NCBI GenBank assembly: GCA_028685185.1
Contig: JAQUEK010000002.1
Span: 180,520-244,519, forward strand
Source of the DNA: Candidatus Altimarinota bacterium
Lineage (GTDB): Bacteria > Patescibacteriota > Gracilibacteria > BD1-5 > UBA2023
DNA: 64,000 nucleotides
Reading direction: 5' to 3'
Position numbers and translations under genes: made by a program. Of the stretch, positions 16 to 40,864 are shown piece after piece (position 1 is the first letter of the stretch; every line of letters begins with the position of its first letter). Below the pieces are notes generated by a model. The model was not told where the DNA came from. It was given only the letters and a program-made list of their open reading frames with translations, and searched no databases.

Positions 16-1161
16 TTAGTTATTACTTACTATTTCAGAAAGGTTCATGATAGGCTGCATTATACCTATCGCTATGAATCAGATCACAACAGCCATGGTT
101 ACGATGATTATAGGCTCAAGAAGCTTTTGTATATTGTTGATGGTGGTTTCCACCTCATCATCGTAGAAGTCAGCTATCTTGATGATTATGGTATCAAGCT
201 TTGCGGTCTCCTCTCATACCTTTATCATCTGTACTAGCATATCAGGAAATAATGCATCGTCTTCAAGGCTCTCTCAAATCTTTATTCACTTCTTGATATC
301 CTCCCTAAGAAGCATTATCCTCTGCCTATAGACTTCATTTCATGCGATATCAGAAACTATTCTCAATGATTCTACTATAGAGATTCAGTTTCATAGAAGA
401 TTTGACAAGACCCTTGCAAATTTAGAAAGCACAACTTTCCTGTTCATACTTCAGAAAATCGGAATATAAAGCATGAATTGATCGAATTTATACTTTCAGT
501 AAGGGGTTTTCTTCCAGAATCATATGAATATGATGAATCAGATTACAAACATTATTATAAGCCAAAGGTAATTCACGAAAAAATCGCTCGTTCATATAAG
601 GATTTGTGTCAAAGGTGGTAATTTTGATTTATCTCAGAATATCTCAACTATTTTCGGCACTACCAAAGTCATCAGAACAGAAACTGCTCAAAACATTACA
701 AATATTATCGCAACCGGGTAAATCAGGGCACCTTTGATCTTCTTTGTCATATTCTCAATCTTTTCAACCTGATCAGCCAATTGTATAAGTGCTGAGTTAA
801 GCTTTCATGTCTTTTCACCTGATTCTATGATAGAACATTCTGAATCTGTAAAGTTATCATCATAATCCCTTAGGCAAGTGCTAAGATTCTTTCATGATCT
901 GATTCAATGTATGATTTCAGAATAAAGCTTTTTCAGAATCGGGTTCTGTTCTTGCTTATCAAGGATTGAAATTGCTTTCAATATTGATATTCAAGCATTT
1001 ACCATAGTTGACAGAAGCCTGAAAAACATAACCTTTCAATTCAGACTAATCCTTTGTCTTGCGATTATCCAATCATTAATGGATTCAAGGCTAAATGAAA
1101 AAGCCTTACCTTCCTTTTGATTTTCTATTCAAGAATCTAATATGATCAAATTTTCAGACAT
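16..1161 (-). CDS. pilC: Type IV pilus inner-membrane platform protein PilC (GspF family), copy 1
   Basis: Reads as 381 aa with TGA = Gly; under the standard code it is shattered. Family knowledge: PilC/GspF is the polytopic inner-membrane platform on which the PilB/PilT ATPases act. Seen: two related GspF-type halves, each with a cytoplasmic helical bundle followed by hydrophobic segments, including the ESGEKTG and KVGEETAKLD motifs typical of the family and a hydrophobic C-terminal segment near residues 350-365. Length fits the family (about 400). It follows pilB by 17 bases and is last in the operon seen here. It is paralogous to the platform gene at 33653-34879. No Shine-Dalgarno motif is visible before the ATG. 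Confidence 0.9.
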
Positions 1162-1178
1162 ATACCATTTATTAAATA

Positions 1179-2429
1179 TTAATTTTCCTTAACTGCACTA
1201 TAAACCTCTTCGATTGAAGTAAGTCAATTCAATGCTTTGATTATTCAGTCCTGTTCCAAAGAAATCATTCATTCATCTACTGCTGTTTCTCCTATCACAA
1301 CTGAACTTTCTCATTTTATTATCATTTGTTTCAGTATTGGTGTGATTTCCATTATCTCATATATTCAAAGCCTTCAAGAATATCATGACTTGTTGCATTT
1401 ATCGCATCATACTGGAATATAGAATATTGATTTTTTAAGCTTTTCAAGTCAAACCCTATTGATAAGTTCTTCTTTTTTTGTTTTTGATAATGCTTTTTTT
1501 ATCATTTCCTTGTAATTTTCAGGAAGTTCTTCAGCATTTACCTCTTTCTTACATGTACATAATTTTCTTATAAGCCTTTGTGCAATTATAGCATTTACAG
1601 AAGCAGGAAGTAGAAATGCTTGTATTCACATGTTTAATATCCTTGTTATCGTTTCAGCCGCAGAATTCGTATGAATTGTGGACATTACAAGATGTCACGT
1701 AAGAGATGCTTCAATTGCAATGTTTATGGTTTCCTTATCTCTTATCTCTCATACCATTATGATATCAGGATCCTGACGCAAAGCGGTCCTAAGTCCAGAT
1801 GCGAAAGTATATCAGATATCAGGAAAAACTTGGCTTTGACTGATTCAATCGATAGTGTTTTCGACTGGGTCCTCAAGTGTCATTATATTTACATTTGGCT
1901 TATTCAGGCTTGATAAGCAAGCATATAAAGTAGTTGATTTTCAGCTTCATGTAGGTCCGGATGTAAGTATGATACCATTTGGCTGACCTATTGCTTTTTC
2001 AAGGACTTCCCTATTATGCCCTTCGATTCAAAGCATTTCCATGGTAGGTATCTTCTTGCTCTTATCAACGATACGCATTACAATCTTCTCTCAATTCACC
2101 GTGGGCAGAGTTGAAACTCTGAGGTCAAGTCATTTCTGATCTATTATGGTTGATATTCTTCAATCTTGAGGCATTCTTGATTCATCGATCTTCAGGTTTG
2201 AAAGTATCTTATATCTTGCAACTATCTGAGGATGAAGAAAAACCTGATATTCAAGAACCTCATGCAATTGTCAGTCGATCCTATATCTGATCCTCACAAC
2301 ATTTGATAATGGCTCGATATGTATATCTGAACTTCATACTTCAACAGCAGAGGATATTATAAGATCACAGATATTCTGAGCATTGTCTCATTTGTATATT
2401 TCATCTTTAAGTTCGTCTATTTTTTTCAT
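1179..2429 (-). CDS. pilB: Type IV pilus assembly/secretion ATPase PilB (GspE family), copy 1
   Basis: 416 aa with TGA = Gly. Hexameric GspE-type ATPase expected to drive pilus extension at the cytoplasmic face. Seen: SSDIHIEP near the N-terminus, Walker A GPTGSGKST, EDPVE Asp box, RQDPDIIMVGEIRD Walker B region, STIHTNSA His box, and a CxC...CxxC tetracysteine zinc element in the C-terminal third. The N1 domain of classical PilB is missing, so it resembles the shorter GspE/PilT-sized forms. Its start overlaps the end of the upstream 387-residue gene by 13 bases, implying translational coupling. A second paralogue lies at 38452-39690. The extension role is inferred from motifs and neighbours. 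Confidence 0.93.
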
Positions 2430-3580
2430 TTTGTAATTTTATTAAAAACCTGCTTGTTTTTATCATAGATTGTCTGTATGCTTTGCATTGTAACATATAT
2501 CTGATATAAATTCTCAACTTCTTTGCTCGGATCCTCAATTTTCGTCTTTGATTGAGCATCTAATTTTAATTTTATCGCGTCCATCTGAGTAACTAAGGAT
2601 CTTATATCTGAAACCGCTTTATTTCATTCATTGTCAGCACAGATATCATTAACTCACTTGTCACATGTTTTTGAGTCTGTAAGTATTTTTGCAAAAAGTG
2701 CAATGAAATCTTTGCTTATCTTGTTTCTTATAAGGATATAATCCTCCATTCATATTCATTTTACATAGAATTGGAGAACTATGGATCAATTATTCTCATC
2801 ATTGCTGTTTATTATATTACTATCGAGTTTAAGATCATTTATCGAAATCAGGAGGTTATTCAGATTCGAGCTTGTATCATTTATACCAGTCACTCTTCAT
2901 GCTATCTTTCAGTTGTTGATCGTGATTTTTCCAGAATTCTGGATATAATCGATGAATCTCTTTATGTTATTATTCTTTCAAGTGAATTCAAGATTAAGTT
3001 TAAAGCTTCAGATATTCGCTAGATTTGTCTTTGAAGTATCGAAAATTATATTATCGATTCAGACAGAAGAGAAACTTTCAAGATTATATTTTTTCAATAT
3101 GTTATCTTCAATAAAACCTATGAATGTCTCAAGTGTAAGCTTATTATTAACTCAAGATGAAGTCAATATCGAGTAGTCAGGAAAAGTAGGAATGATATTT
3201 CATAATATATTCTTGTTCTTTTCAATCTCTGAATTATAGAAATCTATTTTTGATATCTCATCATCGACCCATTCATTATATGTCTTATTATAATTTTCAG
3301 GAATCTTTATAGCAATATCGATCTTATTCTTATCAAGGAAAAGATTTTTCGTATCGGTATATCAGGCAGCTAAAAATTTTGCCTGTACTTCATCTACGGT
3401 AAATCATTGTGTCTTGATCCTATTCAGGTCAATATTCAGATTATTTCACTCCAAAGAAGTGCTTGATATCACCTCATACTTTCATAAGGCATAATTATAT
3501 ACAAATAACACGAATAATATTATGAAGATTGAATTGAATATTATTCATTTTATATATTTTTGTTTTTCCTTTTTTTCCAT
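2417..3580 (-). CDS. Single-pass membrane protein of the pilus operon, possibly PilO-like
   Basis: 387 aa. Not confidently assigned. Seen: a lysine-rich cytoplasmic N-terminus, one membrane helix at about residues 12-32, then a long extracytoplasmic part containing a stretch with the pattern of PilO-type alignment proteins (a beta strand, then a lysine/phenylalanine-rich helix and another strand, about residues 190-240). The last third is helical and charged. It ends 13 bases inside pilB and begins 2 bases after the next gene upstream, so it is in the same operon. A PilN/PilO-like role in linking the motor to the envelope is inferred from topology and position only. It ends in TAG. Confidence 0.72.
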
Positions 3581-3581
3581 A

Positions 3582-5144
3582 TTACATTTTGTTATTATAG
3601 ATAAATTTAAGTTTTAACAGTAATGTTGTCTTAGTTGTAAAGGCTCATTTTATTCATCCGTCTCAGCTTATGAATTTGCTTATTCAGATTGTCTTAGGAA
3701 AATCCAAAACCATGAATCAGTTATTCTTATCCCTAAGGTTCTCCAAGAATTTGATTGCAGTTATCCTTGAACTCAACGAAGTCGATTGTGAGAAAATCGA
3801 TCCTCCATAGACATCACAGGAAATATCCATCTCTCATTTTTCATTCAAAGTCAAACTGCTACACTCTATATCCTCTCATTTATATGGACTCATCATCCTT
3901 ATCTCATCGAACTTTTCAAGCATATTCTTTATATAAATCCTTGAATCTCATGTTTTTTCCTGAATAAATTGAACTTCAGGAGAATTACTTATATTATCTG
4001 TCTCTAGTTTTCTTGGTAAAAGCGCATGAAGATTAGAAACTATATTTTTTTCAAGATCGCTCTTTTCTTTTTGCAGAGATGTTACAATCATAGGTAATGT
4101 CTTACAGTCAGTATTATCATATCAATCTATTGACCATGATAAATAAGGACATACTGGCAATGCTGAAACTATATAGTTATCGTTTGTTGTTTTAAGATAT
4201 ATATCAACAGTAAGCAGAATTATAAGGAAAATAGATAACAATGCAAAATTCGTTGATATCTTATATGCCACAAAAATAGGATGCTCCTTGATTTTTCTTT
4301 TTTCAATATCCTCTTCGGTATCGCTATTTTCGAAATTCAAGTTTTGAAGTTCTTGGAATATATCCTCTGTTCATGAATCATTTGATATGATTGTTTTAGT
4401 GGTGCTATTTACTATAGTATCGTTTTTTTCTTGTTCTATTGGTTGTATTGGTTCTTCAACAGTTTCAATGTTCGTCTTGCTATCTTTTTTGAAGATTTTT
4501 CAAAGCAGGGATTTCATAGATTTCTTGCTTTTCTTATCTTCCTGCTCCGACTCAACACCTAAATCTAAGATTTCAGATTTATCCTCTTTGGTTTTGGTTT
4601 GTTCTGCCTTAATTTCTTGAACCTTAGGGGTTTCAGGTTTTATATCATCTTCTGGATGATCGTTATGAAAATCAGATTCGAAGAAACTGTTTCAAGTTGC
4701 AGGAATATCTTCTGTTTGTTCTTCCTTGGATTCCAATACTACCATGATATCTTCATCGATGACTGAGTTTGTTTCAGCTGGAATATCAGTAACTTCATCC
4801 TCCATAGAATCAGAGGTATCGGATACATTGTCCAAAGATTCTGTATCAGTAACTTCTACAAGCTTATCTTCTGAATTAACTACAGCTTCGCTTTTAGATT
4901 CATCGGAAATCTCATCTTTTATATCAAGCGAATCATAAAAATCATCAAATTCATCTTTTCAATTTGATTTGTCTTTTTTCTTTTTAAAAATGTCTAAAAA
5001 AGATAATGACCCTTTCTTTTGTATAACCTCATTGATTCAGGTTCAGTCTGATTCAGGAGTCATATTTTTGTCATCTATAAAACCTTCAGAATTTTGACCT
5101 AAATCATCAATATTTTCAGGCCCCCCCTTATTTATATTTCCCAT
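3582..5144 (-). CDS. Acidic single-pass protein of the pilus operon
   Basis: 520 aa. Unassigned. Seen: about 290 residues of very acidic, low-complexity cytoplasmic sequence rich in Asp, Glu and Ser, interrupted by two short basic-aromatic motifs (LSFLDIFKKKK and SLLGKIFKKD), then one membrane helix at about residues 299-320 and about 200 extracytoplasmic residues. The extracytoplasmic part is helical then beta-rich, reminiscent of PilN/PilO-type proteins. It is the first gene of the pilB-pilC operon seen here. A run of seven G lies at codons 6-8. Similar basic-aromatic motifs in acidic linkers occur in the phosphatase at 34882-38436, which suggests a shared docking or membrane-contact role (inference). 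Confidence 0.7.
5121..5127. repeat. Seven-base G/C homopolymer at the start of the acidic pilus gene
   Basis: A run of seven C on the plus strand (seven G in the coding strand) gives two consecutive GGG glycine codons at codons 7-8. Both the run and GGG are unusual in this AT-rich region, where glycine is mostly UGA. Slippage here would shift the frame within the first ten codons. Confidence 0.85.
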
Positions 5145-5206: not shown

Positions 5207-7891
5207 TTATAGGTATTTACTTTTCAGTAAATTTAGGAATAATGAGGTTTTTCATGACTTGATTTTAATTCATTCCGGAAAGCTTTCTTTCACGATATTT
5301 CACCAAGATGTGTCAATTCTCTTATCTAGTATTATTATAATTCATTTATCAGTTTTTGTCCTTATTAGTCTTCCTAATCATTGTTTAAACTTCAAGATCA
5401 TATTCGGGAGGCTGTATTCATAGAAAGAATCGTTATATAATGTCGATCTTGCCTGAAAAATAGGATCTGATGGCACCATGAAAGGAAATTTGTATATTAT
5501 AAGCACTTCAAGGTCTGATCCTGGAATATCGACTCATTCCCAAAAACTGTCTGTTCAGAACAATACTGAATTCGAAGAGCTTGATTTGAAGTTTTCAAGA
5601 AGCTTATATTTTCATCATCATAATCATTGCACCAATAGATTGATTCAAAGCTTTTTCAATTCCGGAAAGATCTGCAGGAAAGCTTCTTTTATGGTTGAGA
5701 AAGATGTAAAAAGTCACAATGTCCTTCATCAAACTATGCAGATGACATCCTTTATGAATTCATTTATTCTTTTCCTTTCATTGTTCTTCCTTATGTCTCA
5801 GATATCAGAAGGGATATATATGAGGGCTTGCTTGGAATAATCGAAATCTGATTCAAGAACAAAGGTATTGAAATCCTTAAGTCACAATGTGTTTATTATG
5901 AAATCGAAAGATGTCGAGATTTTCAAAGTCGCACTTGTGAGGACTGCAGAATCAAGCTTTGACCAAAGATTTTCACTCAGATAAGATCAAACATTCAATA
6001 ATGTATGATATATTCAAATTCAATTCTTATTATCCTTATATACGACCTTTATGAATTTCGAATCGGATTCGCTTTTCAATATGTTTTTCAGAACACTAAG
6101 AAGTTCTTCTAATTCCTTAAGATATCACTCAATCTTTTCAAATGTTTCATCTCAGACTGTATAAAGATAATCTAGCAGGAAATGTATCTTTCATTCAAGT
6201 GAATTCAAGATGTTTAAGATGTTTCAGAATGATTCATTCTTATAAAGGTCACTTCAGATCAGGAAATCCCTTGAATCGAAATCTCTAGATTGATCTTTTT
6301 TTCCTTCAACATAAGATTCCAGAAAATCAAAGATTATTCAGACGTGCATTATTATTCATTCCTTCATCTCATAGAATTTTTCGATCTTTATGGATTCAGC
6401 ACTTTTACTTTTCTGCTTCAGTATAGCCTCTAGGATAAATAGGTTGGTTTCGAATTGAGCTATCGAACAATGCTTTTTCAGGCTATCTGTCACGCTTGCT
6501 TCTAGATTATGCGCCTCATCGATTATAAGGTTCTTGATTTTCGGCAAAATCATGCTGGATACATTTTCAAGATCCTGAAACAGCAGAGAATGGTTTACTA
6601 CCACAATATTTGAATTTTTACCGTTATTTCTGGCTTTAAATAAGAATTCATTATTCTTGAACGGATTCGTTGATGATAATACCCTCTTATCTCAAGAATT
6701 CACTTCTTTCAGCAAAACAAATTCCTTTCAGAAGAAATTCATTTCATCGAGCTCTCAGGTTTCTGTCTTCATAAGCCAAAAAAGAATCTTTCATATAAAT
6801 ATTATCTCTTCGTTTCATTTTTCATGATTATGGATGAATTCGAAGAATTTCAGGATGCTCAGATAATTATTCCTTCATTTTACCTTTGAATATGTAAAAT
6901 CAACGGTTTCAGGATGCTCAGATAATATTAGCTTCAGTTTCGGTATATCCTTATAGATTATTTGATCCTGAAGTCATTTTGTGTTTGTTGATATTACTAC
7001 TTGCGTTCATGTCTTTACAGAATGTATGATGGCTGGAATAAGGTATGCGAATGTCTTTCAGATTCAAGTCGGTGCTTCTATGAGAGAGAGTTTTTTATCC
7101 TTGAATGATCAATCGATTATCTCTATCATTTTTTTCTGTTCAATCCTTTCCTCGATATTTTCCTGGTTCTTGATATTATCAGAAAGAGTATCTAATGCAT
7201 TCAATCTGATATCAGCATCAACAATCAATTCTTGCTTCTTGTATTTTCATATCCTGTTTATAATCATATCTTCAATGATTTCAGTTTCTATGAAATTCAA
7301 ATTTTCTCAAAGGTATTCTTCAAGAATTATCGAAAACGATCATTTTTCCTTATACAGCGAATATATGAAGTATAGTATCTTCTTCCTTGATTCATCCAGA
7401 TTACAAAGAATTCATACAAGCATTTCAAGAAGCTTTGCAGTTGCGACAACATCGTTTCTTGCCCTATGAGCATCCTCAAATCCTGCTCATAGGCTTTTGC
7501 ATAAGCTTGTAAGACTAAGGCTCTTTTCTTCATAAAGAAGTATCTGTGATAATTCAAAGGTATCAATCGAATAATTATATGTGAGATCTACTCAATATGT
7601 CTTAAGAAAACCTATATCAAAGCTGACATTATGTCATACTACAATACTATCCCCAATAAATTCCCTTATCTTTTCCCTCAATGAAATGAAAGTTGGTGAA
7701 TTTTCAACATCATCATCTGTAATTCAAGTGATATAGCTGACCTCCTCAGGAATAGAAAACCCAGGGTTAACAAGGCTGCAGAACTCATCAGTGAGCTTGA
7801 AATCATCATATTTCAATAAGGCCACCTCAATTATGGCATCATTATCTTTATTCAATCATGTGGTTTCCAGATCTATAGCTACAAATTTCAT
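5207..7891 (-). CDS. dinG: DEDDh exonuclease fused to a DinG-like superfamily 2 helicase
   Basis: 894 aa. The N-terminal 170 residues form a DnaQ-like 3'-5' exonuclease: DLETTGL (Exo I), HNVSFD (Exo II) and HRARND (Exo III, DEDDh type). The rest is a DinG/XPD-like helicase with Walker A EAPTGIGKT, the DEAH box IIDEAHNLE, and a C-terminal motif VI of the form QGLGRLIR. This exonuclease-DinG order is known from Gram-positive bacteria. The cysteines that bind the Fe-S cluster in E. coli DinG are not evident; the region after KGRNNYL has Ser instead. The expected role is DNA repair or resolution of replication and transcription conflicts. It lies downstream of ftsZ behind a strong terminator, so it is probably a separate unit. 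Confidence 0.9.
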
Positions 7892-7942
7892 ATGTTTTTT
7901 TATTTAGTATTAATGCAGTTTATTTATTTTCAGTATTTATCA

Positions 7943-7992
7943 AATACAAAAAAAAAGAGATGCGATTAATCGCATCTCTTTTTTTTTGTATT
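7943..7992. terminator. Perfect 50-base palindrome, ftsZ terminator
   Basis: Two perfectly complementary 25-base arms without a spacer. The GC-containing core AGAGATGCGA pairs with TCGCATCTCT, flanked by nine A and nine T, so it terminates on either strand. It lies 8 bases after the ftsZ stop and about 50 bases before dinG. Confidence 0.93.
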
Positions 7993-8000
7993 CAATTTTA

Positions 8001-9197
8001 TTATTTCATCTTGTTTCTCAAGAAAGCTGGAACATCCAAATCGCTTGAATCATCAATGCTTGATTGAGGAGCTGGCTTATTGAAAGAGCTTTGCTGTCAA
8101 CCGCTAAGAGTTCTCTTACCGAATTGTGATCAGATAGTTGTCTTAGGTGTTTCCTGATATTTCTTGTTTGTCTCTTCGTTGAATCATGTTGCAACAACTG
8201 TAATCTTGATTTCTCCTGTATAATTCTCATTGATAGTAGCACCGAAAATGATATTTGCTTCACCGTCACATGCTTCAGTAATAATCTTAGCAGCTTCATC
8301 TACTTCAAACATTGAAAGATCCGATCCTCAAGTTATATTGAAAAGAAGTCATCTTGCTCAAGCGATTGAAAGCTCAAGAAGAGGAGAATCGATTGCAGAT
8401 CTTGCAGCCTCGATAGCCCTGTTTTCTCAAGAACCGTATCAGATACCCATTAAAGCGCTTCATGCATTTTGCATAACAGATTTAACATCGGCAAAATCAA
8501 CATTTATAAGTCCAGGATGAGTTATAAGATCCGAAACTCATTGTACTCATTGATTCAAAACCTCATCAACGATCTGAAAAGCATCTAAAAGTGGTGTTTT
8601 TTTGTCTATGATTGTAAGTATCTTGTCATTTGGTATAGTAATAAGAGTATCTACTTTTTCCTTTAACCTATCGAATCCGTCCAAAGCTTGTACCGATCTT
8701 CTCTGTCATTCGAAAGCAAAAGGTTTTGTAATGACTCAAACAACTAAAGCTCAAAGTCATTTTGCAATCTCAGCTATGACTGGAGCTGCTCCTGTACCTG
8801 TTCAACCTCACATTCCGCAAGTGATGAAAACCATATCAGCTCAAGCAAGTGCTTGTTTTATCTCTTCACTTGATTCTTCTGCAGCTTTCTTACCTACTTC
8901 AGGATTTGCTCCTGCTCAAAGTCATCTGGTTGTAGCTCTTCAGATATTTATCCTTATCTGAGCTTTTGAAGTGAATAAAGCTTGTGCATCAGTATTGATA
9001 GCAATGAATTCAACTCATTCAAGTCATGCAGCGATCATTCTGTTCACAGCATTCTGTCAACCTCAACCAACTCAAATAACCTTTATGTTCGCAACAGGAG
9101 AAATGTAATCAGATACATTGATCTCTTCAATAGGGTTTTTGGTGAAATCCCCTCTCAAGTAAGATTTAAGCTTGTCGTCAGTTTTTCTTATAGACAT
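8001..9197 (-). CDS. ftsZ: Cell division GTPase FtsZ
   Basis: 398 aa, read codon by codon with TGA = Gly. Tubulin-like GTPase that forms the Z-ring. Seen: N-terminal IKVIGVGGGGQNAVNRM, the signature GMGGGTGTGAAP, the catalytic-loop region NVDFADVKSVM, and a canonical C-terminal peptide DLDVPAFLR that in other bacteria docks on FtsA. Several signature glycines are TGA codons. Length is typical. It follows ftsA by 36 bases without a terminator, giving an ftsA-ftsZ operon; the rest of the dcw cluster is not here. The start ATG is chosen because it gives the standard N-terminal extension before the Rossmann fold. Confidence 0.97.
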
Positions 9198-28098: not shown

Positions 28099-29085
28099 AT
28101 GGAAAAAAGATCAATCAGAAATAAAATCATCTCTTCATTATCCCGAGAAAACAAAAAAGGTTTTACTTTAATAGAGCTTATTGTTGTGGTGGTCATATTG
28201 AGCGTTTTAGCAACGATATCATTCATATGATATCTATCGAACATGTCATCCGCAAGAGATACCACAAGAAAATCTGACGCATGAAAAATCAAGCAGGCAT
28301 TAAATGAATTCAAAAGCGCAACAAATAACTATCCGTTTCCTAAGGATTATCTGGCCATATCGAATTCCTGAACATCAAACCAGACCTGATCAACCAATAT
28401 ATACGCGCTTCAATGAATACTTTCAGACAAATTCGATATCAACTGATCATTCATGGTTCCGAAAGACCCTAAGATAAATAAGAGCTATCTGTATTCCATA
28501 ACCTGAAACCGAAAGGATTTCCAGATCTGATCAACGCTTGAAAACTGATGAAGGAATATAGCTTATATTGAATGAAGCTTCAAGACGGTTTCAAAGGATT
28601 ATTTCCCTAGTCTGCTTATCGCAGCATCTGGATCAGGAATTGTTATAGAGATACACAGCTGAACGCTTGATTGAGCAGAAAACAGGAAAAAATTCATAGT
28701 CAGCTGAGGAAGTTATAATCTTCCTTACGATTTTGCAACCTGAGGAATAGTCAATAATCCGGCATCGTATGATTCTATAGTGAATGAGACCTGAGTGATG
28801 ATACCGAAAGCAACTAATTATACCAGCTGCTCAAATATATACGAGAATTGAAAATATCTATGACCATGACAATATCAGGTCCATGTCTCAACCTGAACCA
28901 TAACTATAGATTGTACTAATTGGAGCTGCGGAATAAGACCATCATATGCTGCAACCTATTATGATGGATCCATATCAAATACAAACTTTCCTAGGACATT
29001 CGATGGCATATGGCAGAACATAGATGAGAATTCCCCATGTTACTACAAATGTACGAATCTTAGCCTTAATGCTGAATGTAACTAA
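28099..29085 (+). CDS. Type IV pilin-like protein 1
   Basis: 328 aa. Seen: a 21-residue positively charged leader and the prepilin peptidase/methylation motif KKGFTLIELIVVVVIL (cleavage after Gly21, Glu+5), one N-terminal hydrophobic helix, then a large extracytoplasmic domain with cysteines and a high content of Ser, Thr and Gly. A 120-residue stretch after the helix is shared with the next two genes (for example FPSLLIA and ENRKKFIVSGGSYNLPYDF). It is larger than a major pilin, so a minor or adhesive pilin is likely. First of three tandem paralogues. Confidence 0.9.
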
Positions 29086-29099
29086 TAACCGACTTATTC

Positions 29100-30548
29100 A
29101 TGAATAAAAGAAATTGACATCATAATGAATCCTGATTCACATTGATCGAGCTTATCGTTGTGATAGCAGTTGTTTCGATACTTACGACAGTCTCTTTCTT
29201 TTCATTCCAATGAAGTGTTGTGAATTCCCGTGATTCAGCAAGGAAAACCGACATGACGAATATAAAGGTGGCGTTGAAATCTTACAAGGAAAAGAACTGA
29301 TATGTCCCCGATCCATCAGAAATGTTCAGCATCACGAATTCATGAGTTTCGAATATTCAGGCATATCAATGAAAGATAGATGAGAATGTATCTCTAAACA
29401 CCATAAAGGAAATACCGAAAGACCCAAGATGATGAGTCAGTTATCCATATTCCGTAACCCAGAACAAGCTTGAATTCCAGATATGAATGACTCTTGAGAA
29501 TGATTGAAAGAATATAGCATACGTTGATTGAGAATATAAGACTGTCACAAAAAATATGTTCCCTAGCCTGCTTCTTGCGATTTCCTGATCATGACAGCAG
29601 ATAGAGATACATGACCTCGTATGAAGCTGAACAGAAAACAGGAAAAAATTCATCCTTGATTGATGAAGCTATAATCTGCCCTACGACTTCGACAAATGAC
29701 TTCCTGTCGCAAATTGAACACAAGTATGATTTTCCTGAATAACAAGCGAGATATGAGTCGATATACCGAAAAACAACACATACCTTAGCTGTGCTGAAAT
29801 ATATAATTGAGGGAAATACATGTGATCATGAACATACGAAATCCTTACCGATTATAAGAAAACCGTAAACAATGACTGCGATTGTTCTTCCTGAACCAAC
29901 ACCTGATCCTGCAAGAATACCGACAATACGCTTTTGTGATATTGGGACATGGAAACCCTTTCATGATGAACATTACAGGATTTGAGCTGAAATTGAAATG
30001 ATTGAACTTTTAGTTGAACAACATCAACATGATGAAAAATATGAGATGCAAGAAATTTTAATGGGGTCAATAATAATATTTTAATAACTAATATTAATAA
30101 TAAAATAACTGTAAAATCTAACTTTACAGTTTGAGCTTGGATATTTCCAATTTCATACAAACATCTTCCTTATCCTGATGATTTATGAATGATTATACAC
30201 AACTGATTTTTTCTATACATGGATAATGTATGATGAATAACATTCAATTCTCCTGAAGACAGTTGGGCTTGAGCATGATCGGCAGGTTTGTATGCTCCAT
30301 TATACTCATGGACATATATTACTTGAACATATGAAGAATCTTGAACTAGTTCTACTTTTCGTTTATATTTTAATGGTATATTAAAGCAAACAAGAATTAA
30401 ATCTATATTAACAAATAAAACATTTAATTTATATATTGGAACTGAAGGAGCTATTCGTTATTTTCCTGGTTCAATAGATGATGTTCGTATTTATGACAGA
30501 ACTTGGACCGATAAAGAAGTTACAGACTATTACAATGCAATCAAATAA
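29100..30548 (+). CDS. Type IV pilin-like protein 2 with LamG-like C-terminal domain
   Basis: 482 aa. Leader of 12 residues with SGFTLIELIVVIAVV; the Gly before the cleavage site is a TGA codon. Residues to about 300 are a paralogue of pilins 1 and 3. After GYWDMETLSGG begins a LamG/concanavalin-like beta-sandwich (about 300-482) ending in the typical SIDDVRIYDRTWTDKEVTDYY. Such domains bind sugars or proteins, so it may be a pilus-borne adhesin. The C-terminal part uses more TTA, ATT, CGT and GGT codons than the N-terminal part. Confidence 0.9.
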
Positions 30549-30567
30549 TATATAATAATCACTAGAG

Positions 30568-32433
30568 ATGAGAAAAAACATATCATGATTCACATTGATT
30601 GAGGTTATCGTAGTTATAGCTATTATTTCTATTCTCTCAACCGTTTCATTCATCTCATTCCAAGGCAATCTGGTCAATTCTAGAGATACCACAAGGAAAG
30701 CCGATATGGCAAACATAAAAGTGGCTCTTACTTCATCAAAGCAGAAAACATGAAGCTTTCCATATCCCTCGGAAAATTTCAGCATCATGAATTCATGATC
30801 CTTAAATATTGAGGCATACCAGGGTATTCTAGATGAGAATGTATCATTAAATACGATAAAAGAGATTCCGAAGGATCCTAGGATAAACATATATTATCCT
30901 TATTCCATAGTGAAAAATAAGCAGGATTTCCAGATATGAATGACATTGGAAAACAATTGAAAGAATATCGCATATGTTGATTGAACATATAAAACCGTTG
31001 CAAAAAACGTATTCCCTAGCTTGCTTCTTGCGGTTTCCTGATCATGACAGCAATTCGAGATACATGAACTAGTATGATCATGATCGGATAATAGGCAGAA
31101 ATTCATACTGGATGGATGAAGCTATAATATTCCATATGAATTCGAGAATAAGCTGCCTGTCGCTAATTGAACTTCTATTTGATTCTCATGAATGATAAAT
31201 GAGGCATGAATCAATATCCCAACAAACACGACATATTCAAGCTGTGCGGAAATCTATGACTGAGACAAATATCTTTGAGAATGAGAATATCAGATACTTG
31301 CAGATTATTGAAAGATTATAAACAATACATGCGATTGTTCATATTGAACCAATACATGATCATGCAGGAATGTCGATAATAATCTAGTGTGATACTGGGA
31401 TATGGATACTATGTCCTGAACATTACTCAAAGATATGAGCTGAAACGGGAATAATTGAACTTTAAGTTGAACAATATCAAGTTTATGAAAAATTTGAGAA
31501 GCAAAAAGTTTTGACGGTATCGACGACCAAGTAATCTTACCGAAAATATCATATGAAGATTTAACCGTGATGGGTTGGTTTTATTTGAAAAGTGATGGTA
31601 GTCGTTGATGAATATTTCAAAGAAGAGAATTGTCATTACCATATAATGGATTTTCCTTATGAAAAGGTGCTAATAATGATTGGGGTTGGAATGTAAATGA
31701 TGTATCCTGAAATTCATTAGTGATTACAACTCCTCAAACTTTAAATGAATGGATATTTTTAGCTTGAACATATTCATCATCAGAGAAAAAAATTCGTTTA
31801 TTCAAAAATTGACTAGAAGTATGAAATTTTACAAATCCTAGCTTTACAAATGATTTCAATTTTGCCAGTCAAGGTGAATTAAGATTTTGATGTAGGGATA
31901 ATTTAAATTATTTTAACTGATATATCGATGATATCCATATATATAATAGAACATTATCAGATACTGAAATTTCAGATTACTATAACTATAGCAGCAATGC
32001 GACATGATATAGTCTATTTAAAAAACTGACAAAGCCGAATTCAGTTGACACATGCATAATCTGGAACAATGATGTCTTCAGTTCATGCTATTGATTAGTC
32101 GATATATCATGATGACCGACAAGCTGGGAAAATGTGACGTTGCGTGCATGAAAATATATGATTTCCCATTATGCAAAAAATATGGGACCTACTGCTTGTA
32201 CTTTAACAGGTTTACCATGAAAACAACATATAGTCAGCTCTGACTGAAAATGATATGATTTCACATTCCCATATTCAGTATGAACTACGCTTACTAAAAT
32301 CACTAACATTTTCACTGTTCCTATGACATGAACATTCAATATCTGGATATATCAGAGCCCAGGAGTTTATACTCCTTTAGTATGCGATGATAATACATAT
32401 TTCGAGAAAATGGAATTATGGAAAAGAAATTAA
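30568..32433 (+). CDS. Type IV pilin-like protein 3 with LamG-like domain and extra C-terminal domain
   Basis: 621 aa. Seen: a 7-residue leader with SGFTLIEVIVVIAII (Gly as TGA), a body closely similar to pilin 2 up to GYWDMDTMSG, a LamG-like domain at about 310-470 with the ending YIDDIHIYNRTLSDTEISDYYN, and a further beta-rich domain of about 150 residues not present in pilin 2. It starts 20 bases after pilin 2. Probable adhesive minor pilin; ligand unknown. Confidence 0.9.
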
Positions 32434-32437
32434 TCCT

Positions 32438-32479
32438 AAAATAACAAAAAAAGACCCAAATGGGTCTTTTTTGTTATTT
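32438..32479. terminator. Bidirectional terminator between pilin cluster and pilT
   Basis: A stem AAAAAAGACCCA/TGGGTCTTTTTT with a two-base loop, continued by a flanking ATAAC/GTTAT pairing. It serves the pilin transcript (plus) and the pilT transcript (minus), whose stop lies at its edge. Confidence 0.9.
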
Positions 32480-33566
32480 AACTATTCACATTATCTTTAA
32501 GATATCTTGGATTGTTCGCATATTTCATTCATTCTTCCATGGAAATCTCTCATTCATTGATGAATTGAAGGATATCTTGTTCAAGAACCTGCATTCATTC
32601 CTTTCATCACATCTGCATCACAGAAGGTATCTGATGAAGCTCATTTTCCCTTATAAGGTTCGATACTGCGGTGTTCTTTATTAGGATTTCCTTTACCATC
32701 TTAACTCAGCTTCAATCGGTTTTCCTCAAAAGCCTTTGGGAAAATACTCAAGCAAGGGTATCTGCTAATTGTAATCTCACCTGATTCTGCTGTCATGATG
32801 GAAATGAATCTATTATACGTGAGATTGTCTGATAAGCGCTTCTTGTATGCAGTGTCGAGAAAACAAGATGTCATGTTTCAGCTAGCGTCAATGCCATCTC
32901 TATTTCTGCTGTATTTCTCATCTCTCAGAATAATATCACTTGTGGATTCTGTCTCATGGCTCAAATCAATGCCGTATTGTAATCGGGAACATCCCTTCAT
33001 ATCTCTTTCTGTTCGACAATCGATTTCCTATGGTCATGCACATACTCGATCGGGTCTTCGATTGTTATTATATGTTTTGCATAATTAATGTTTATCTCAT
33101 TTATCATAGCAGCCAATGTCGTGGACTTTCAGCTTCATGTAGGTCATGTAACAAGAACCAATCATTGACCGATCTTTGTTATTTCACTGTAGATGCTAGG
33201 CAGGTTAAGGTCTTTGATCGAAGGGATCTTTTCTGATAGAAGCCTTAATACGACCATTATATTGTTCATCTGGAAAGATATGTTTCATCTGAATCTTGAA
33301 CCTTGGAACAAAAACGAGAAATCAAGATTTTTTGTTTTTACAAGCTTATCATACTGATCCTGTGTTATTATGGATTTTGCGAATTTTTCGGTATCATCTG
33401 GAGTGACGATTTCAATCTCCTCATTTATATAGACTATCTCTCATGATATCTTTATCGCTGGAAAAGTTCAGACAGTATAATAGAAATCTGATCATTTGTT
33501 ATCTATTATCACTCATAATAGTGCGTCTCTTATAGGATGATTCCTTAATAATACATTTTCTAACAT
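32478..33566 (-). CDS. pilT: Type IV pilus retraction ATPase PilT
   Basis: 362 aa. Seen: Walker A GPTGSGKST with every Gly as [12 protein letters not shown] Asp box, [16 protein letters not shown] Walker B region, [20 protein letters not shown] His box and a helical C-terminus. The absence of the tetracysteine zinc element and the short length fit PilT rather than PilB. Drives pilus retraction and twitching. Own promoter at 33594-33622. In the second T4P block with pilC and pilB copies 2. Confidence 0.93.
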
Positions 33567-33652: not shown

Positions 33653-34879
33653 CTACATTTTCTTCGCGACTTTCGCCAGATTGAAGAATGGCAGCATGAT
33701 AGCGATTACTATAGTTCAAACTATTGAACCTATGAATACTATTATAAACGGTTCAAGCATCGTCATCAGGTTCGCTATATATCTCTTCAATTCGGCAGAA
33801 TAATTCTGTCATATCTTATCTATCGTCTTTCATACTGTTCAGGTCTCCTCTCAGACATTTATCATATGCACGAAATCTTCATTGAAATACGGATTTGCAA
33901 ATGTTATCTCCTTATTGTTAACGTTCAATCACATCGCATTCGATAGTTTTATTCATGTTTCGACCTCATTCTTTATCCTTATGATATCTTTCTTGTAGAA
34001 GATGTTAGGAACTACATTCGATGTGATTTCCAGCGCCTCAAGAAGCAATACTCCTGAATCCAGAAGAAGACTGAAAGAATTTATGAATAATATAACATTG
34101 TTCTGCTTAACTATGAATCAGAATACAGGAAGCCTAAGATTTATATATCATATGCAAAGCTGACCCAGATAGGTCTTTTTGAATATCATGAAAAAAACCG
34201 AAAATCATATCACTCAGATTATTATGGCAATGTAGTTTCAAGTTATGAAATGCGAAATATTTATCAGAAATTGTGTCAATGCAGGAATCTCCACTCATGA
34301 TTTGACGAATGAATCAGTTACCTTCGGTATGATGAACGTCATCATGAATGTAACCATCGTAATGGTTATAAGAAGAAGGATGGCAGGATATATCAATGCT
34401 CCCTTTATCTTAGCTCTGAGCTCAATGCTCTCAAGTAATTTCTTCTCAAGCTCAGCCAATACCTTAGGAAGACTTCATGTCTTCTCTCAAACATCCAAAA
34501 GAGCGATTATAAGCGTATCGAAATATTTCGAATATTGCCTTAAAGTGTCAGTTATAGATAATCAGTGGTCAAGATTAAGCCTTATCTCATTTACGATTTT
34601 CTTAAGTCTTGGATTCTGCACCTGCTTATAAAGTATTCAAAATGCAGTCTTGATATCGATTCAGCTGTTCAGAAAATTCGATAATTTATTGATGAACTGC
34701 CAGATTTCTTTCGGAGAGATTCATCAGATGATTATTCATTCTGTTGTTTTCTTGATGATTCATGCAGGTTTTTTTCATGTCCTTAAAGCATAACGAGCAT
34801 TATCAAGCAATTGCAAAAATTTCTCACCATTGAAATTTCAGTTCCTGTCTATGTATTTTACCTTATTAAAAAAGCTCAT
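33653..34879 (-). CDS. pilC: Type IV pilus platform protein PilC (GspF family), copy 2
   Basis: 408 aa. Two GspF halves with hydrophobic segments, the DVGEKTGSLPKVL and NVGEETGTVGKTID motifs, and a hydrophobic C-terminal segment. Better match to canonical PilC than copy 1. It starts 3 bases before the end of the phosphatase gene's intergenic boundary (stop at 34882), so it is co-translated with it. Ends in TAG. Confidence 0.92.
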
Positions 34880-34881
34880 AT

Positions 34882-37800
34882 TTATATATTTCAATTTTTA
34901 AAAATAACATCTATCGCTTCCTTTATTACTATCTCATATTCTCACTTCTTATATAATTCATTCAACAGAGAATATTTCTTCTGCAATTTCTCATCCTGTT
35001 TCTTAAGCTGCATCTTCTGTTCATTCATTATTGATTTCTCAAGATAGAATTTCATCTTATCATGAGCATATCATTCCTTGAAATAGATCAATGTTTCTTG
35101 CTTAAGTTTTCAGAATTCTCATATCTTATAAAGCCTTTCAAGCCTTTCAAGCCTTATCTTCAATTCCCTGCTGTATTTTTCTTTCTTTGCAAGATTGATG
35201 ATTTCCTCTTTTGTCGCATTCTTCAAGGGTATCTTGAAATTCTTCACATTTATCTCCTGTAATATCTTGTCCAGTTCTTCTTTTCCAGAAACCATATCTT
35301 TATTGAAATCCCTTCAGAACAAAATTATTGTAACATCATCCTCGAATGAGTTGGCTCATTTGAAATCATTGAACTCCTTCATCAGGTATTCGAATATCTT
35401 TTCCTGATTCGTATAGAGCTTACATGCCTTCAGAAAACATGCTTCCAATTTATTTATATGATACATCTCTCAGATATCATTCTTGATTTCGATTATTCAA
35501 TCTGTATATGCGAAAATTATATCTCAATCCTCCAGATCCAATTCCTTTATCTTGATCGATGATGAATTGTTTATCATCCTGACTCATAAGGCAAGACCTC
35601 ATGCGATGACCCTTTCAATCCTACTTTCTTTTTTCCTGTAGATAAGAAGTGGTATATGTCATGCTCAGATTATATTCAATTTGCTTTTGATATTATTCCA
35701 TTCGAAAAATATAGATGTTATGAAAACCTTTCATTTTATCTTTTCCTTCAGATCATTATTGACTTTAAGGAAAAGCTCTTGAAAATCCCTGATTTTCTTT
35801 GTACATTCGAAAAATATCTTTGTCAAAAGTGCTACAGTGAATCAAGCTTGGATTCAATGTCATGTTGCATCTCAGAAATAGAACAATGTCTTATCATTTT
35901 CAATGTGCTTATATCAGAAAGTATCTCATACTATCCTATCCTTTCATATTATCCTTCAGAATACATTGAATCATTTAAGAGTGAATCATTCCAGATCCTT
36001 AACAAGTCACTTGCTTATATGATCAAAAAAATCATCATCTATTACCTTCAGATCTATATCATTTATGGTTCAATGCTTACTCAATAATCTCTCTATCTTA
36101 TTCAATGATTTCTGTCTCTTATTATCATCGTTTCTTGACCTCATCATCAAGACAAAATTAAGGAAAAATCTCAAAAATTTCTTATGTATAGGAATAGGTA
36201 GATTCTTATTCTTATTAAGATCGACTCAGATTTCATTCAATATATCATTTATCTTTTCATTTTTCTTTATCTCTTTTTCTTTATCTATCTGTTTATTGTT
36301 ATAGATTTTCTGAATTTTTGTAAGGATACTTAAAGATTCCTTATTGTTAGAGAAATCAGATGCAAGCTTTTTCGCTAAAGCTAAAGCCTTTGTATATTCC
36401 TTTTGCTTTATCAGGATCTTTATTTCCTTATCTTTTTCCTTGAATTTAAGCAGATCCTGTTTCCTCAGGTTCTTATCTTCCTGCTCTTGAAGATTCATCT
36501 TATTTTTCTGAAGCTTGGATTCAAGAAGCGATAATCTTTTTGAAAGCTCGTTTGATATCTCAATTATCTTCTTGATCTTTTCCTTTGCATTATCTGAAAC
36601 CTCTTTGATATTTGAAGATCTCAGAACATAAAGCTTCTTTATCTGCTCATCATTATTATTAAGGATAAACTTATGCTTCAATATCAATTCATTTATTGCA
36701 TTTATAGCGCTTTTGAAATCATTCTCCTTCTCATAGGCATCGACCAGCAATATAGCTTCTTTGAATCATTTTATGAATTCAGACCTATCTTTCTTTTCGG
36801 AAATGAAAATACCGGCAATTCTCTTGAAAAAAGTATTATTCTTCTTTATATTATCTATATTTTTCTGAATCTTAGACAAAAAATCCAGAAGCATCTTATT
36901 GTCAGGAAAATCTTTTATAAGTTTTTCTGTCAGATTTCATATATCATCATATTTCTCCTGTTTCATGAGATCCTTGAAATCCCTTTCGATTTCCTTGAAG
37001 AATTTCAGATCCTGATCATCTTTCTCTTTTTGGGTCTGCTGTTCTTTCTTCAATAGATTTTTTGCAAGCTTATCCTCAAGTAATGCTAATCTTTTGTTTA
37101 ATTCAGATGAAAAGCCATTTATCTTTTTTATCTTATCTTTCGCATTTATCGATACCTCTTCGATATTGGAAATCTCCAAAACATAGTATTTCCTTATGAG
37201 TTCCTCGTTATAACCTATTGCTGACCTATGTTTCAATATAAGTTCCCTTAAAGCGAATTCCGCGCTCTTAAGATCATTTTCCTTTTCATAATTCTTTATT
37301 ATATTAAGCGCTTTATCTAATTCATTCAATGAATCTGATTTTTCCTTCTTGAAAAACCTATTAAAGAAAAAATTCTTTTTCTCTTTCTTGTCTTCTGCGG
37401 AATTGATTTCCTTATCCTTATTCTCAGGGGTATTCTCTTCTTTTATCTTATCGATTTCTTTTTTAGGCTCTTCTGATTCTACTTTTTCAGTAGCTGGGAC
37501 ACTCTCAGAAGTCTCATTATCTTTATCAGTAGTTACTATTTCTGGTTTATCTCATCTGAAAAATCATGCTATATAGCTGAAAAATCATTGTTTAGAAACA
37601 TTTTCGATTACTGTTTCAGTAAAAATTTCCCCTTGTGATTCGATTACCTTTCATTTTTTCTTACGTTTTTTATTTTTCTTCTTTTCATTGTTATCTTGTG
37701 ATTCTGACATTGTAGGTTCTTGATTTTCCTGTTCTTGAACAATTATCTGCTCTTGTATTTTCTCTTGAGTCGCAATAATCTCAGGTTCTTTAATTATAAC

Positions 37801-38436
37801 CTGTTCTTTAGGTTCTTCAATGATTTCTTGTGCTTGAAAAATTGGTTCTTCTGATTCTTTTTCTTCTATAATTTCATCTGATTCTTGTTTCCCCTCTTCA
37901 TCTGCATTGTCTTTTCTTGAGAATAACCTGCTGAAGAAACCTGTTTTTTCAATTTGTTCTATTTCTGGCTCTTGAACTATATTTTCCTCCTGTTCATTTT
38001 CTTGAACTGTTTCTGATTCCTTAATTTTCTCTTCGGACGCAATTATCTCCAATTCTTCAATCATATCTGATTCTGGTACATTCTGCTCTTCCTGTTCTTG
38101 AATTTTAGATTCGATACCTTGTTTTTTTCAATTTAACTTTTCTATCCTAGATATAAGATCATCGGAAAAATCTCGGATCTTACTTATCTTTTCTGAAATC
38201 TCTTCATTATCTCATTTTTCAGAAATAATATTGTTCAACTTATTGATTAGCTTATCATTATTGATTAAGGCATTTTCATATTTTGATATATGTACATTTA
38301 TCTGATCGATAGCATCGTCATATTTGTTCTCTTCATCCAAAGAATCCAACAAATCCAAAACCCTATCGAATCAATTTGATTCAGGTTTTGCATTTATGTT
38401 TAAGATTTTTTTTATTTTTTGTAAAATCAAGAGCAT
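34882..38436 (-). CDS. Large SpoIIE/PP2C-like phosphatase in the pilus operon
   Basis: 1184 aa in one uninterrupted frame with TGA = Gly. Residues 1-120 helical; 125-360 an acidic Glu/Gln-rich linker with basic-aromatic motifs (GFFSRLFSRK, FFNRFFKKEK); about 365-560 and 560-740 two related helical repeats (YEKENDLKSAEFALRELILKH and YEKENDFKSAINAINELILKH); about 800-1045 a PP2C-type phosphatase of the SpoIIE/RsbU group with FGDATGHGIQAG, GAGHIPLLIY, FAYTDGIIEI and a final DDVTIILF; then a charged helical tail. No membrane helix. It lies between pilB and pilC with gaps of 15 and 2 bases. A phosphatase regulating pilus assembly through partner switching or direct dephosphorylation is inferred; no kinase or anti-sigma gene is seen nearby. 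Confidence 0.9.
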
Positions 38437-38451: not shown

Positions 38452-39690
38452 TTAAATTAGCTTCATAACTTCATCTATTGTAGTCTTTCAAGTTGCAGAC
38501 TTTAGAAGTCAATCCTGCATTATAGTAATCATTCAAAGCTCTTTTGCTTTTTCTTCTATTTCAAATGCTGGCGCCTTATTCAATATAAGAGAATCAAGAT
38601 CTTCGGTTACAACCAATACTTCATGAACTCAGATCCTTCATCTATATCATGTATTGCTGCATTCCTCACATCATGTTCATTTATAGAAATTTATGTCTTC
38701 CACCTTTTCTTCTATTATGTTTCATAGATAATTAGAAACCTTATTTATGATGGCACTTTCATTAAGATGATATGCTCCGAGGCATTTTTCACAATTCTTC
38801 TTCACTAATCTCTGAGAAACTATAAGCTTTACTGCAGATGATATCAAAAATGGTTCTATTCACATATTTATAAGCCTTTGAATCGTTGCAGATGCGGAAT
38901 TCGTATGGATTGTCGATAAGACAAGATGTCATGTCAATGCAGCTTCTATAGCAAGCATCGCAGTCTCCTTATCCCTTATCTCTCAAACCATTATTATATC
39001 AGGATCCTGTCTTACCAAAGATCTCAGTCACTGGGCAAAATCGAATCAGATATCCTTTCTTACTTGTGTTTGGTTTACATTAGGCATGTTATATTCAACC
39101 GGATCTTCAAGCGTTGTGATATTGAAATCCAGCGGATTGAAATGTTTTAGCATACTGAAAAGTGTAGTTGATTTTCAGCTTCATGTAGGTCATGCGACAA
39201 GAATAAGTCAGAACTTGCTTTTCAGACTCTCTTTGATTTTTGATTTATTCACGTCAAGAAAGCTAAGTTTATCGAGATCCAACAATGAGAAATCCTGAAC
39301 AAGAACCCTCATTACCACTTTTTCTCAATCGATAACTGGAATGATGCTGACCCTTATGTCCACATTCTCATCAATCTTGTCATATTTGAAAGGAATCTTT
39401 CAATCCTGAGGCCTTTGCTTTTCATCTATCCTAAGGTTAGACATTATCTTTATCCTTGAAATAAGCTTGGCATATTCATCATGTGAAATCTTATCGACAT
39501 AGATAAAATCTCAGCTTTCCCTGAACCTTATGTTCACATATTCCCCTGTCGGCTCTATGTGGATATCAGAAGCTTTTGTTTTTATAGCTTCTATGAAAAG
39601 ATTTGAAGTATATTCGACTATATCTCAAACATCACTCTTTACAGGAAATTTAAGAAAATCTTTTTGGTTTTTTGTCTTGTTTTCAAACAT
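38452..39690 (-). CDS. pilB: Type IV pilus assembly ATPase PilB (GspE family), copy 2
   Basis: 412 aa. Seen: KASDIHIEPTG, Walker A GPTGSGKST, TLEDPVEYNMP, RQDPDIIMVGEIRD, STIHTNSASATIQR, and the zinc tetracysteine CEKC...CEEC. First gene of the pilB-phosphatase-pilC unit. Closely resembles copy 1 in the core but differs at the N-terminus. Role as the extension motor is from family knowledge. Confidence 0.93.
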
Positions 39691-39724
39691 TTTATTTTTG
39701 TTAAAATTTTTAAAATTCCTTTGC

Positions 39725-39753
39725 ATTATATTACATAATCAAGATGTATGCAA
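39725..39753 (-). promoter_or_regulatory. Promoter for the pilB-phosphatase-pilC operon
   Basis: Minus strand TTGCAT and TATAAT with a 17-base spacer, leaving a leader of about 30 bases to pilB. It shares the 283-base divergent gap 39691-39973 with the pilin promoter; no gene lies in the gap. Confidence 0.7.
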
Positions 39754-39973: not shown

Positions 39974-40864
39974 ATGGTTTTAGAAAAAATAAAATCTACT
40001 AGCAATACTAAAGGTTTCACCTTAGTTGAGCTTATAGTTGTTATTACGATACTTGCGGTTCTTGCTGCAATCGCATTTATATCTATTTGAAATGTTACTT
40101 GAAGTGCTAGAAACTCAAAAAGACAGAACGATCTTAGTTCTATCAGTACAGCAATAAGGAATAAGGTTGAAATAAACGGTATGTCTATCGAACAAGTAGT
40201 TAACACAGCAAATACAAATGTTACATTATCATGAAAGACTGCTGATTATACTTGAGATACTATCTATCCTGATGCATATGCAACATATTATATTGCTTGA
40301 AGGAATCTATCAACTGATACTGAATTGAAATATAAAGCAGGAGATGTGAATTATGATGCGCTTTGAATAAAGTCAACAGAATTCCAAGATCCTAATGCTA
40401 TTCCTTATGTAGTATGAGCTACTAAATTAGCTTGACAGGTATTCGAGCTTTGAGCTTCTCTAGAATTGGATTGAAATAAGAAAGCGACTTACATAGTAGG
40501 TACTTATACTCCAAGAACATATCTATGAAGCTGAGTTACATTGACTTGAATGATTGACGGTCTTCATAAGAAAATCACTATCCAAGATGAGCTTCAGATC
40601 TGAAAATTGAAAATATTGGATAATGTTGTAATCGGTACTACCAATGCTCAGATAACAAACATCTCTTGAGACGGTAGGACAATAAGTTATTCTTGAAGTT
40701 ATGCTACTGATTGAGAAAAAGCTATAACACTATGAAATTATAGCGGTTCACTTATTGATGATTCAAAATTAGAGCCAGCATGACTTATTAGATGAAACGA
40801 TCTCTCTAAAAATTATTGTAATAAACCTGCTACAAGTGATAGTCAAGAATGTATTCCTTATTAA
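39974..40864 (+). CDS. Type IV pilin, candidate major subunit
   Basis: 296 aa. Seen: leader of 14 residues and NTKGFTLVELIVVITILAVLAAIAFISI, the best prepilin motif in the window, then a globular domain with Thr/Gly-rich strands and two cysteines near the C-terminus (a possible disulfide loop). Monocistronic, with a strong promoter before it and a strong terminator after it, as expected for an abundant subunit. It uses more GGT, ACT and GCT codons than neighbours, consistent with high expression. Divergent from pilB copy 2. Confidence 0.9.

Follow-up and report, generated by a model that had tools for sequence, protein, structure and literature searches.

Analysis of the window, the whole 64,000-nucleotide stretch of Gracilibacteria DNA considered here, revealed a SpoIIE-type PP2C phosphatase encoded between pilB and pilC of a type IV pilus operon. 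In our genome comparisons the gene is fixed at this place in two families of one order, and its tie to one pilus system is strong. This suggests that the phosphatase may be an unrecognised on/off switch for the pilus machine. The bacteria carrying the gene are tiny or ultrasmall and probably host-dependent; if the phosphatase gates the pilus, it would provide a handle on when such cells grip. As for the mechanism, we tentatively propose, at a little under an even chance, that a fixed, pilus-docked SpoIIE phosphatase of the pilB1-pilC1 system (with pilT) dephosphorylates a STAS protein phosphorylated by an RsbW-type kinase, so that the pilus would be coupled to a partner switch.

The phosphatase gene and the surrounding pilus operon

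The first-pass annotation, which was made from the letters of the window, had placed a 1184-residue SpoIIE/PP2C-like phosphatase between pilB and pilC, and this was borne out. The frame at 34882-38436 on the minus strand encodes 1184 aa and is open throughout with translation table 25 (TGA=Gly, the Gracilibacteria code), in which 37 TGA codons are read as Gly. Reading the same interval with table 11 gave fragments only, so that table 25 is needed. The genome itself, also translated with table 25, comprises 1.17 Mb in 8 contigs with a completeness of 100%. The Pfam SpoIIE model PF07228 matches residues 848-1041 with an E-value of 2.5e-31 and 109.6 bits, against a cut-off of 25. The genes of the pilus locus are:

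28099..29085, (+): type IV pilin-like protein (PF07963 N_methyl)
29100..30548, (+): pilin-like protein with a concanavalin-like (LamG) C-terminal domain (PF07963, PF13385)
30568..32433, (+): second pilin-like protein with a concanavalin-like domain (PF07963, PF13385)
32478..33566, (-): pilT, retraction ATPase, downstream of pilC1 (TIGR01420, 405.8 bits, above the cut-off of 319.1)
33653..34879, (-): pilC1, platform protein, PilC/GspF, with an ATG start at 34879 (PF00482, 9.1e-50; pilC1 clade in the tree)
34882..38436, (-): SpoIIE-type PP2C phosphatase of the pilus operon, 1184 aa (table-25 ORF, Pfam, alignment)
38452..39753, (-): pilB1, extension ATPase, PilB/GspE-type (PF00437, 1.9e-118; TIGR02538)
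39974..40864, (+): pilin-like protein upstream of pilB1, on the opposite strand (PF07963)

Given that pilB, pilC and pilT are all present, the locus is a type IV pilus operon with retraction. PilB1 scored 456.8 bits against TIGR02538, below the cut-off of 675.65, with model positions 157-560 of 564 matched. As the match begins at model position 157, PilB1 is without the N-terminal part of the PilB model, a part that binds regulators in other bacteria. The gaps to the phosphatase gene had been given as 15 bases for pilB and 2 bases for pilC. The former is exact, whereas the latter depends on the start of pilC1: it holds for the ATG at 34879, but not for the longest frame (33653-34894, minus strand, TTG start), which overlaps the phosphatase gene by 13 bases. 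Within the phosphatase gene, the following parts were delimited:

34885..35250, (-): conserved C-terminal domain, predicted to form four helices, residues 1063-1184 (alignment, AlphaFold2)
35314..35895, (-): SpoIIE/PP2C catalytic domain, residues 848-1041 (Pfam PF07228; AlphaFold2 core-model comparison)
36253..36807, (-): N-terminal helical domain, copy adjoining the catalytic half, residues 544-728 (profile of orthologue N-termini, i-E 1e-23)
36838..37365, (-): additional internal repeat of this N-terminal domain, residues 358-533 (same profile, i-E 4.6e-20)
37657..38136, (-): acidic linker, residues 101-260 (29% D/E, 14% K/R)

The acidic linker and the two internal repeats had both been noticed in the first pass, and both were recovered here; the repeats rest on the profile of orthologue N-termini, and self-BLAST of the N-terminal part gave no pair. 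The median length of the phosphatase is 638 aa, with eight of 42 proteins, including that of the window, exceeding 700 aa, and the linker and the duplication are an extension of the window's protein beyond the usual family form. The claim of a full PP2C catalytic set likewise agrees with the alignment, in which all 42 orthologues carry the Asp of columns 838, 856, 979, 1033 and 1034. We take these columns of the PP2C motifs to include metal-binding residues; their loss in any orthologue, which would have weakened the claim, was not observed. Alignment columns were used here, given that regular-expression patterns were too strict and missed 5 of 44 sequences. Judged from these residues, the phosphatase is probably catalytically competent.

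In the AlphaFold2 core model (19 sequences; pLDDT 80.5, pTM 0.49), the PP2C domain lies between helical arms, the placement of which is unreliable given the low pTM. The closest solved structure was SiaA-PP2C, which matched model residues 255-491 with a Z-score of 24.9 and an rmsd of 2.3 over 225 residues; the Z-scores for the RsbU domain of Rv1364c, SpoIIE (model residues 269-497) and PppA were 23.7, 22.5 and 16.9, respectively. By these comparisons (Z 22.5-24.9 to the SpoIIE, RsbU and SiaA domains), the predicted fold of the phosphatase core is that of a PP2C. A profile of the core gave no match to solved structures at E 1e-4, and the window protein alone found two weak response-regulator phosphatase entries.

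The C-terminal domain, with a mean column identity of 59% in the alignment and a pLDDT of 88.4, lies outside the matched stretch of SpoIIE proteins from beyond the order, whose matches end before it. Fold searches with this domain gave nothing clear: the best Foldseek E-value was 1.6, and the best Z-score was 6.7, to the C-terminal domain of FKBP52, such values being common for helical models. The models thus point, weakly, to a helical or TPR-like domain only. The strong conservation of this domain and the large predicted helical arms that flank the catalytic domain could indicate that the protein acts mainly at the PilB-PilC base, as a scaffold or in assembly, with catalysis being secondary. 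We consider this quite improbable, given that the PP2C Asp columns are invariant although identity to the window's core is only 29-49% among the orthologues sampled.

Linkage to pilC1 across genomes and a SpoIIE-PilC fusion

We compared the locus among 59 genomes, including that of the window, 56 of which contain SpoIIE domains. Re-called loci of this set yielded 104 SpoIIE ORFs, and 42 of them, in 42 genomes, touch pil genes. The order was pilB, phosphatase, pilC on one strand for all 42; in G026 the contig ends before pilC, the terminal part of the phosphatase being found on a different contig, upstream of pilC1. At most 50 bases separate the gene from pilB in every case, and from pilC (overlaps counted) in 35 of 41, the other six gaps being 52 to 389 bases. 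Two additional genomes, G020 and G025, are linked as well; in G025, the start of a contig encodes the last 69 phosphatase residues upstream of pilC1.

A pilC1 profile, the source of which was 14 phosphatase-adjacent proteins, so that the definition of pilC1 leans toward linked cases, detected pilC1 in 44 of the 59 genomes (38 at full length with at least 578 bits, six in pieces or split) and scored at most 224 bits in the remaining 15. The phosphatase lies directly upstream of pilC1 in all 44, and no full-length phosphatase was found in the 15 genomes without pilC1, some of which are incomplete. By family, the linked genomes account for 14 of 27 in f1 (the window's own family), 30 of 30 in f2 and none of two in f3. 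The first-pass annotation had read a tie to the pilus from the operon order, and this tie is upheld by the counts of 44/44 with and 0/15 without pilC1, together with the fusion described below. The pil operons of relatives spoke in the same direction: the other 13 sampled f1 genomes and both f3 genomes lack the phosphatase and also the whole pilB1-pilC1 type. Given that the arrangement is inherited by descent, the 44 genomes are not independent events.

We also searched 353 genomes of the class with a profile of the phosphatase core. Matches of at least 438 bits came from 58 genomes of the window's order (13 f1 and 45 f2), and the context, viewed for 48 of these full-length genes, showed that all 48 touch pilB or pilC. 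A full-length core match was absent in three f2 genomes (G114, G115 and G122; 77, 68 and 90% complete), and outside the order the best match in the class reached 201 bits and covered the SpoIIE region only. A draw of 379 genomes from the phylum gave 19 with a match, all of the same class, with a full-length one only in the window's own genome. In a scan of named genomes, 39 loci were found; the 18 strongest come from 16 Gracilibacteria and two unnamed or Patescibacteria records, and 17 of them carry pilB, phosphatase and pilC in order, the contig of L188 ending inside the phosphatase. Several of these loci belong to the same assemblies as the genomes above and therefore mainly add organism names. 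The other 21 loci have no pilB, pilC or pilT gene, and these genes were likewise absent from the fetched stretches around 14 loci (L160-L173, some of them short) that encode SpoIIE proteins from other families, mostly of 518-540 aa.

Compact genomes can retain gene order by descent, and the 44 genomes represent one origin. A general phosphatase might therefore merely be co-transcribed with the pilus genes, but we find this very improbable. The presence of the gene tracks that of pilC1 even as orthologue identity falls to 29%, all 48 full-length genes with a viewed context touch pilB or pilC, the window's genome already has a second SpoIIE, and a SpoIIE-PilC fusion exists in another family.

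This fusion was found in G136, a genome of family f8 in the same class, as a single 1059-aa ORF that lies 9 bases from pilB and encodes SpoIIE (214-407, 127 bits) followed by T2SSF (156.3 bits in two stretches). In a tree of 68 PilC-type proteins, from which 7 of 75 were left out as too short, the fused PilC is sister to 37 pilC1 proteins (100/99) on a long branch of 2.67, and 17 pilC2 and 13 pseudopilin-operon proteins fall into separate groups. In a tree of 145 SpoIIE domains, from which domains under 150 aa were left out, the 43 sampled pil phosphatases form one clade with a support of 1.0, and the fused SpoIIE domain groups with other paralogues (0.991) outside this clade. Given this conflict between the two halves, common descent of the arrangement with the pil operon is not established; the fusion reflects either an independent joining or fast divergence of the pil clade, and, as we see it, both readings favor a functional link between PilC and phosphatases of the SpoIIE type. 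A class-wide search, in which few candidates were scored per genome, gave no other SpoIIE-PilC fusion among the matches listed. Long SpoIIE-PilC frames at L063, L076, L082, L102 and L159 were rejected, as they arise from reading through stops and, when re-called, are two separate genes.

Candidate partners and a second SpoIIE protein

According to the first-pass annotation, no partner-switching proteins are nearby. This is correct for the pil operon genes of the window, among which no STAS or RsbW gene was found, but a search for a cognate kinase or STAS protein showed that the genome has an RsbW-type kinase and two small STAS proteins. A Hanks-type kinase was rejected as a partner, given that the genome has 0 matches to PF00069; across the 59 genomes, 17 have a match at E 1e-3, with 9 above the cut-off.

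The RsbW-type protein (G000:C8:14122-14643; HATPase_c_2, 32.2 bits against 27.4) was missed by Pfam alone (0 at E 1e-3) and was found with a profile from relatives. Its family occurs in 52 of 59 genomes, this copy included, and this putative kinase keeps the N box (Asp-Glu-Leu-x-Asn-Asn) and Gly-rich boxes; the solved structures that it matches are anti-sigma F factors. The three STAS matches of the genome comprise two small STAS proteins of 135 and 128 aa and a third match, within a 568-aa ORF whose sequence resembles that of a SulP transporter. In the alignment, a Ser of the 135-aa protein is in register with Ser58 of SpoIIAA, the phosphosite as numbered in a passage of PMC11418112. Some genomes that lack the pil phosphatase likewise have RsbW and STAS, and an RsbW match is absent in four phosphatase-bearing genomes (G016, G017, G024 and G025; 78-93% complete). 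Both f3 genomes are without RsbW and without SpoIIE, and in G136 the gap between an RsbW-like gene and a gene for a 396-aa SpoIIE is 7 bases. A partner switch very likely exists in this group. In the window's genome, the kinase, STAS and phosphatase genes are spread, and gene neighbourhood gave no link between the pil phosphatase and a STAS protein.

The second SpoIIE of the genome is a protein of 392 aa. Among the 58 ORFs of this type, in which one G017 gene is counted as two pieces, 45 precede a same-strand gene for an ATPase with TraG P-loop or CagE-TrbE-VirB matches, at gaps of 6 to 547 bases; of the 13 without this neighbour, at least two (G017 and G052) are at contig ends. By a crude distance test, no VirB4/TraG-like ATPase lies beside the 42 pil phosphatases. 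Both SpoIIE phosphatases may thus serve envelope machines. At nine positions, each of the two types conserves a residue of its own. Positions 899, 903 and 906, which we place close to the switch loop used in substrate docking, are invariant in the second SpoIIE and vary in the pil phosphatase. Such differences may reflect different substrates. In addition, ten f2 genomes (G031, G034, G035, G040, G041, G042, G044, G049, G053 and G056) show a single STAS match alongside two SpoIIE matches, and the role of STAS phosphatase may already be filled by the second SpoIIE.

Given that the two SpoIIE types are conserved differently and that these ten genomes show fewer STAS than SpoIIE matches, direct action on the pilus is a live rival. 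The phosphatase would then act on PilB1, PilC1 or PilT themselves and switch extension or retraction, as modelled on PppA of type VI secretion, and both the strict linkage to pilB1 and pilC1 and the fusion in G136 would fit such a role. We nevertheless rate it as rather unlikely, given that the genome has no PF00069 kinase and hence, by this search, no known kinase for PilB or PilC, and that the best-studied members of the subfamily act on STAS proteins according to PMC11418112.

Proposed mechanism and comparison with known systems

Because a candidate substrate and a kinase are both in the genome, a pilus-docked partner-switch phosphatase is the simplest mechanism. We propose that the SpoIIE-type Ser/Thr phosphatase would be the constant partner of a single retractable type IV pilus, docked by its helical N- and C-terminal arms on the PilB/PilC base. 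The RsbW-type kinase would phosphorylate a small STAS protein, the presumed substrate, from which the docked phosphatase would remove the phosphate. Pilus state and partner switch could then be coupled at the machine, in much the way that SpoIIE links its own switch to the division septum, with the signal passing either from pilus to switch or from switch to pilus. The observations behind this proposal are the domain, the catalytic motifs, the predicted fold, the strict linkage, the relative's fusion, and the kinase and STAS genes; counting against it are that our search of the pil operon turned up neither a STAS nor an RsbW gene and that the fusion is confined to one genome. The overall interpretation of the first-pass annotation, a dedicated phosphatase controlling the pilus, is thus partly supported, and the link to host attachment that it raised might follow from such control. 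In a broader and somewhat doubtful scheme, each motor would have a built-in SpoIIE, one for PilB1/PilC1 and the other for the VirB4-like ATPase, set against one RsbW-type kinase, and the former would gate extension at PilC, perhaps on host contact.

One close parallel is that of Bacillus SpoIIE and RsbU, which share the catalytic family and the predicted fold, and whose STAS and RsbW-type partners have counterparts in this genome. Unlike them, the pil phosphatase has its gene inside a pilus operon, has helical domains of its own, and has no adjacent STAS or RsbW gene that we could find. Excerpts of previous reports describe that SpoIIE is found at a cellular structure, namely the division site (PMC3517971), and that SpoIIE and RsbU act on folded STAS proteins, which are recognised via three loops and a switch element (PMC11418112). 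In Bordetella, an Rsb-like phosphatase, a STAS protein and a kinase (BtrU-BtrV-BtrW) control type III secretion, as stated in a passage of PMC8256260. That machine is a different one, and BtrUVW is a described set, whereas the genes here are scattered and would be linked only by their predicted functions. In the SiaABC module of Pseudomonas aeruginosa, which contains the nearest solved structure to the pil phosphatase (SiaA-PP2C), the output feeds a diguanylate cyclase and biofilm formation according to passages of PMC7278518 and PMC8457831. A STAS protein of the window's genome has a sub-threshold match to SiaC (18.9 bits against 24.5).

A phosphatase dedicated to one machine has a precedent in the PpkA-PppA-Fha system of type VI secretion. 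The kinase PpkA is of the Hanks type, which the window's genome lacks by PF00069, and PppA is not known to belong to the SpoIIE subfamily. An excerpt of PMC6082577 describes its PP2C phosphatase as acting post-translationally. In Synechocystis, the RsbU-type gene slr2031 is listed among pilus and motility genes and labelled as a sigma-factor regulation protein in a passage of PMC7076178, which, unlike what is seen in the window, gives no placement with pilB or pilC.

Among the matches listed from the open PubMed Central literature, the excerpts gave no description of a phosphatase in a pilB-pilC operon. The words phosphatase and SpoIIE are absent from the text of a Gracilibacteria proteome paper (PMC11452946). 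Phosphatase is also absent from the text of a review of PilB cofactors (PMC11656802), passages of which attribute control to cAMP, c-di-GMP, a chemotaxis-like system and two-component proteins, and from the main text of an account of type IV pili in Saccharibacteria (PMC12206443). Passages of this last account report two pilus systems, T4P-1 and T4P-2, one of them with PilT, and describe host binding as involving pili.

Further pilus-related and other genes in and beside the window

16-2429 (-), second pilB-pilC pair, without a phosphatase
3582-5144 (-), 520-aa protein
29100-30548 (+) and 30568-32433 (+), two pilin-like proteins with concanavalin-like LamG domains and an N-terminal methylation motif
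L248 (locus left of the window, own genome, G000:C4) 527-3280, PilB-like ATPase, 917 aa

Fifteen relatives do not carry pilC1; loci were fetched from 14 of them, all but G015, and each showed a pilC of the clade to which the window's second pilC belongs (pilC2). The 917-aa PilB-like ATPase has a long N-terminal part, in contrast with the short PilB1. A Pfam search of the 520-aa protein gave no match at E 0.01, and this is probably the acidic protein named in the first-pass annotation. The LamG-bearing proteins, which adjoin pilT, are candidate adhesive minor pilins.

Other SpoIIE phosphatases and their neighbours

L003 (own genome, G000:C7) 5948-9188, second SpoIIE gene and, downstream on its own strand, a VirB4/TraG-like ATPase gene

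Among the relatives, a same-strand VirB4/TraG-like ATPase gene follows 45 of the 58 ORFs of the second SpoIIE type. Machine ATPases thus adjoin both SpoIIE phosphatases of the window's group.

We also observed a third SpoIIE type (778-846 aa) on four contigs of the surveyed genomes (G011:C8, G018:C5, G020:C18 and G022:C107). At these loci, an RsbW-type gene and a STAS gene lie within a few kb of the phosphatase gene, a closeness that resembles a classical partner-switch operon.

Surroundings of the RsbW-type kinase gene

Thirteen loci with the RsbW-type kinase gene were fetched from family f2 of the window's order. At 11 of them (L249, L250, L252-L257 and L259-L261) the gene lies downstream of a pseudopilin/T2SSF operon, in the same orientation, a count that is biased because several of the loci were chosen for that very proximity. 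An HU-like gene often immediately precedes the kinase gene in the f2 loci.
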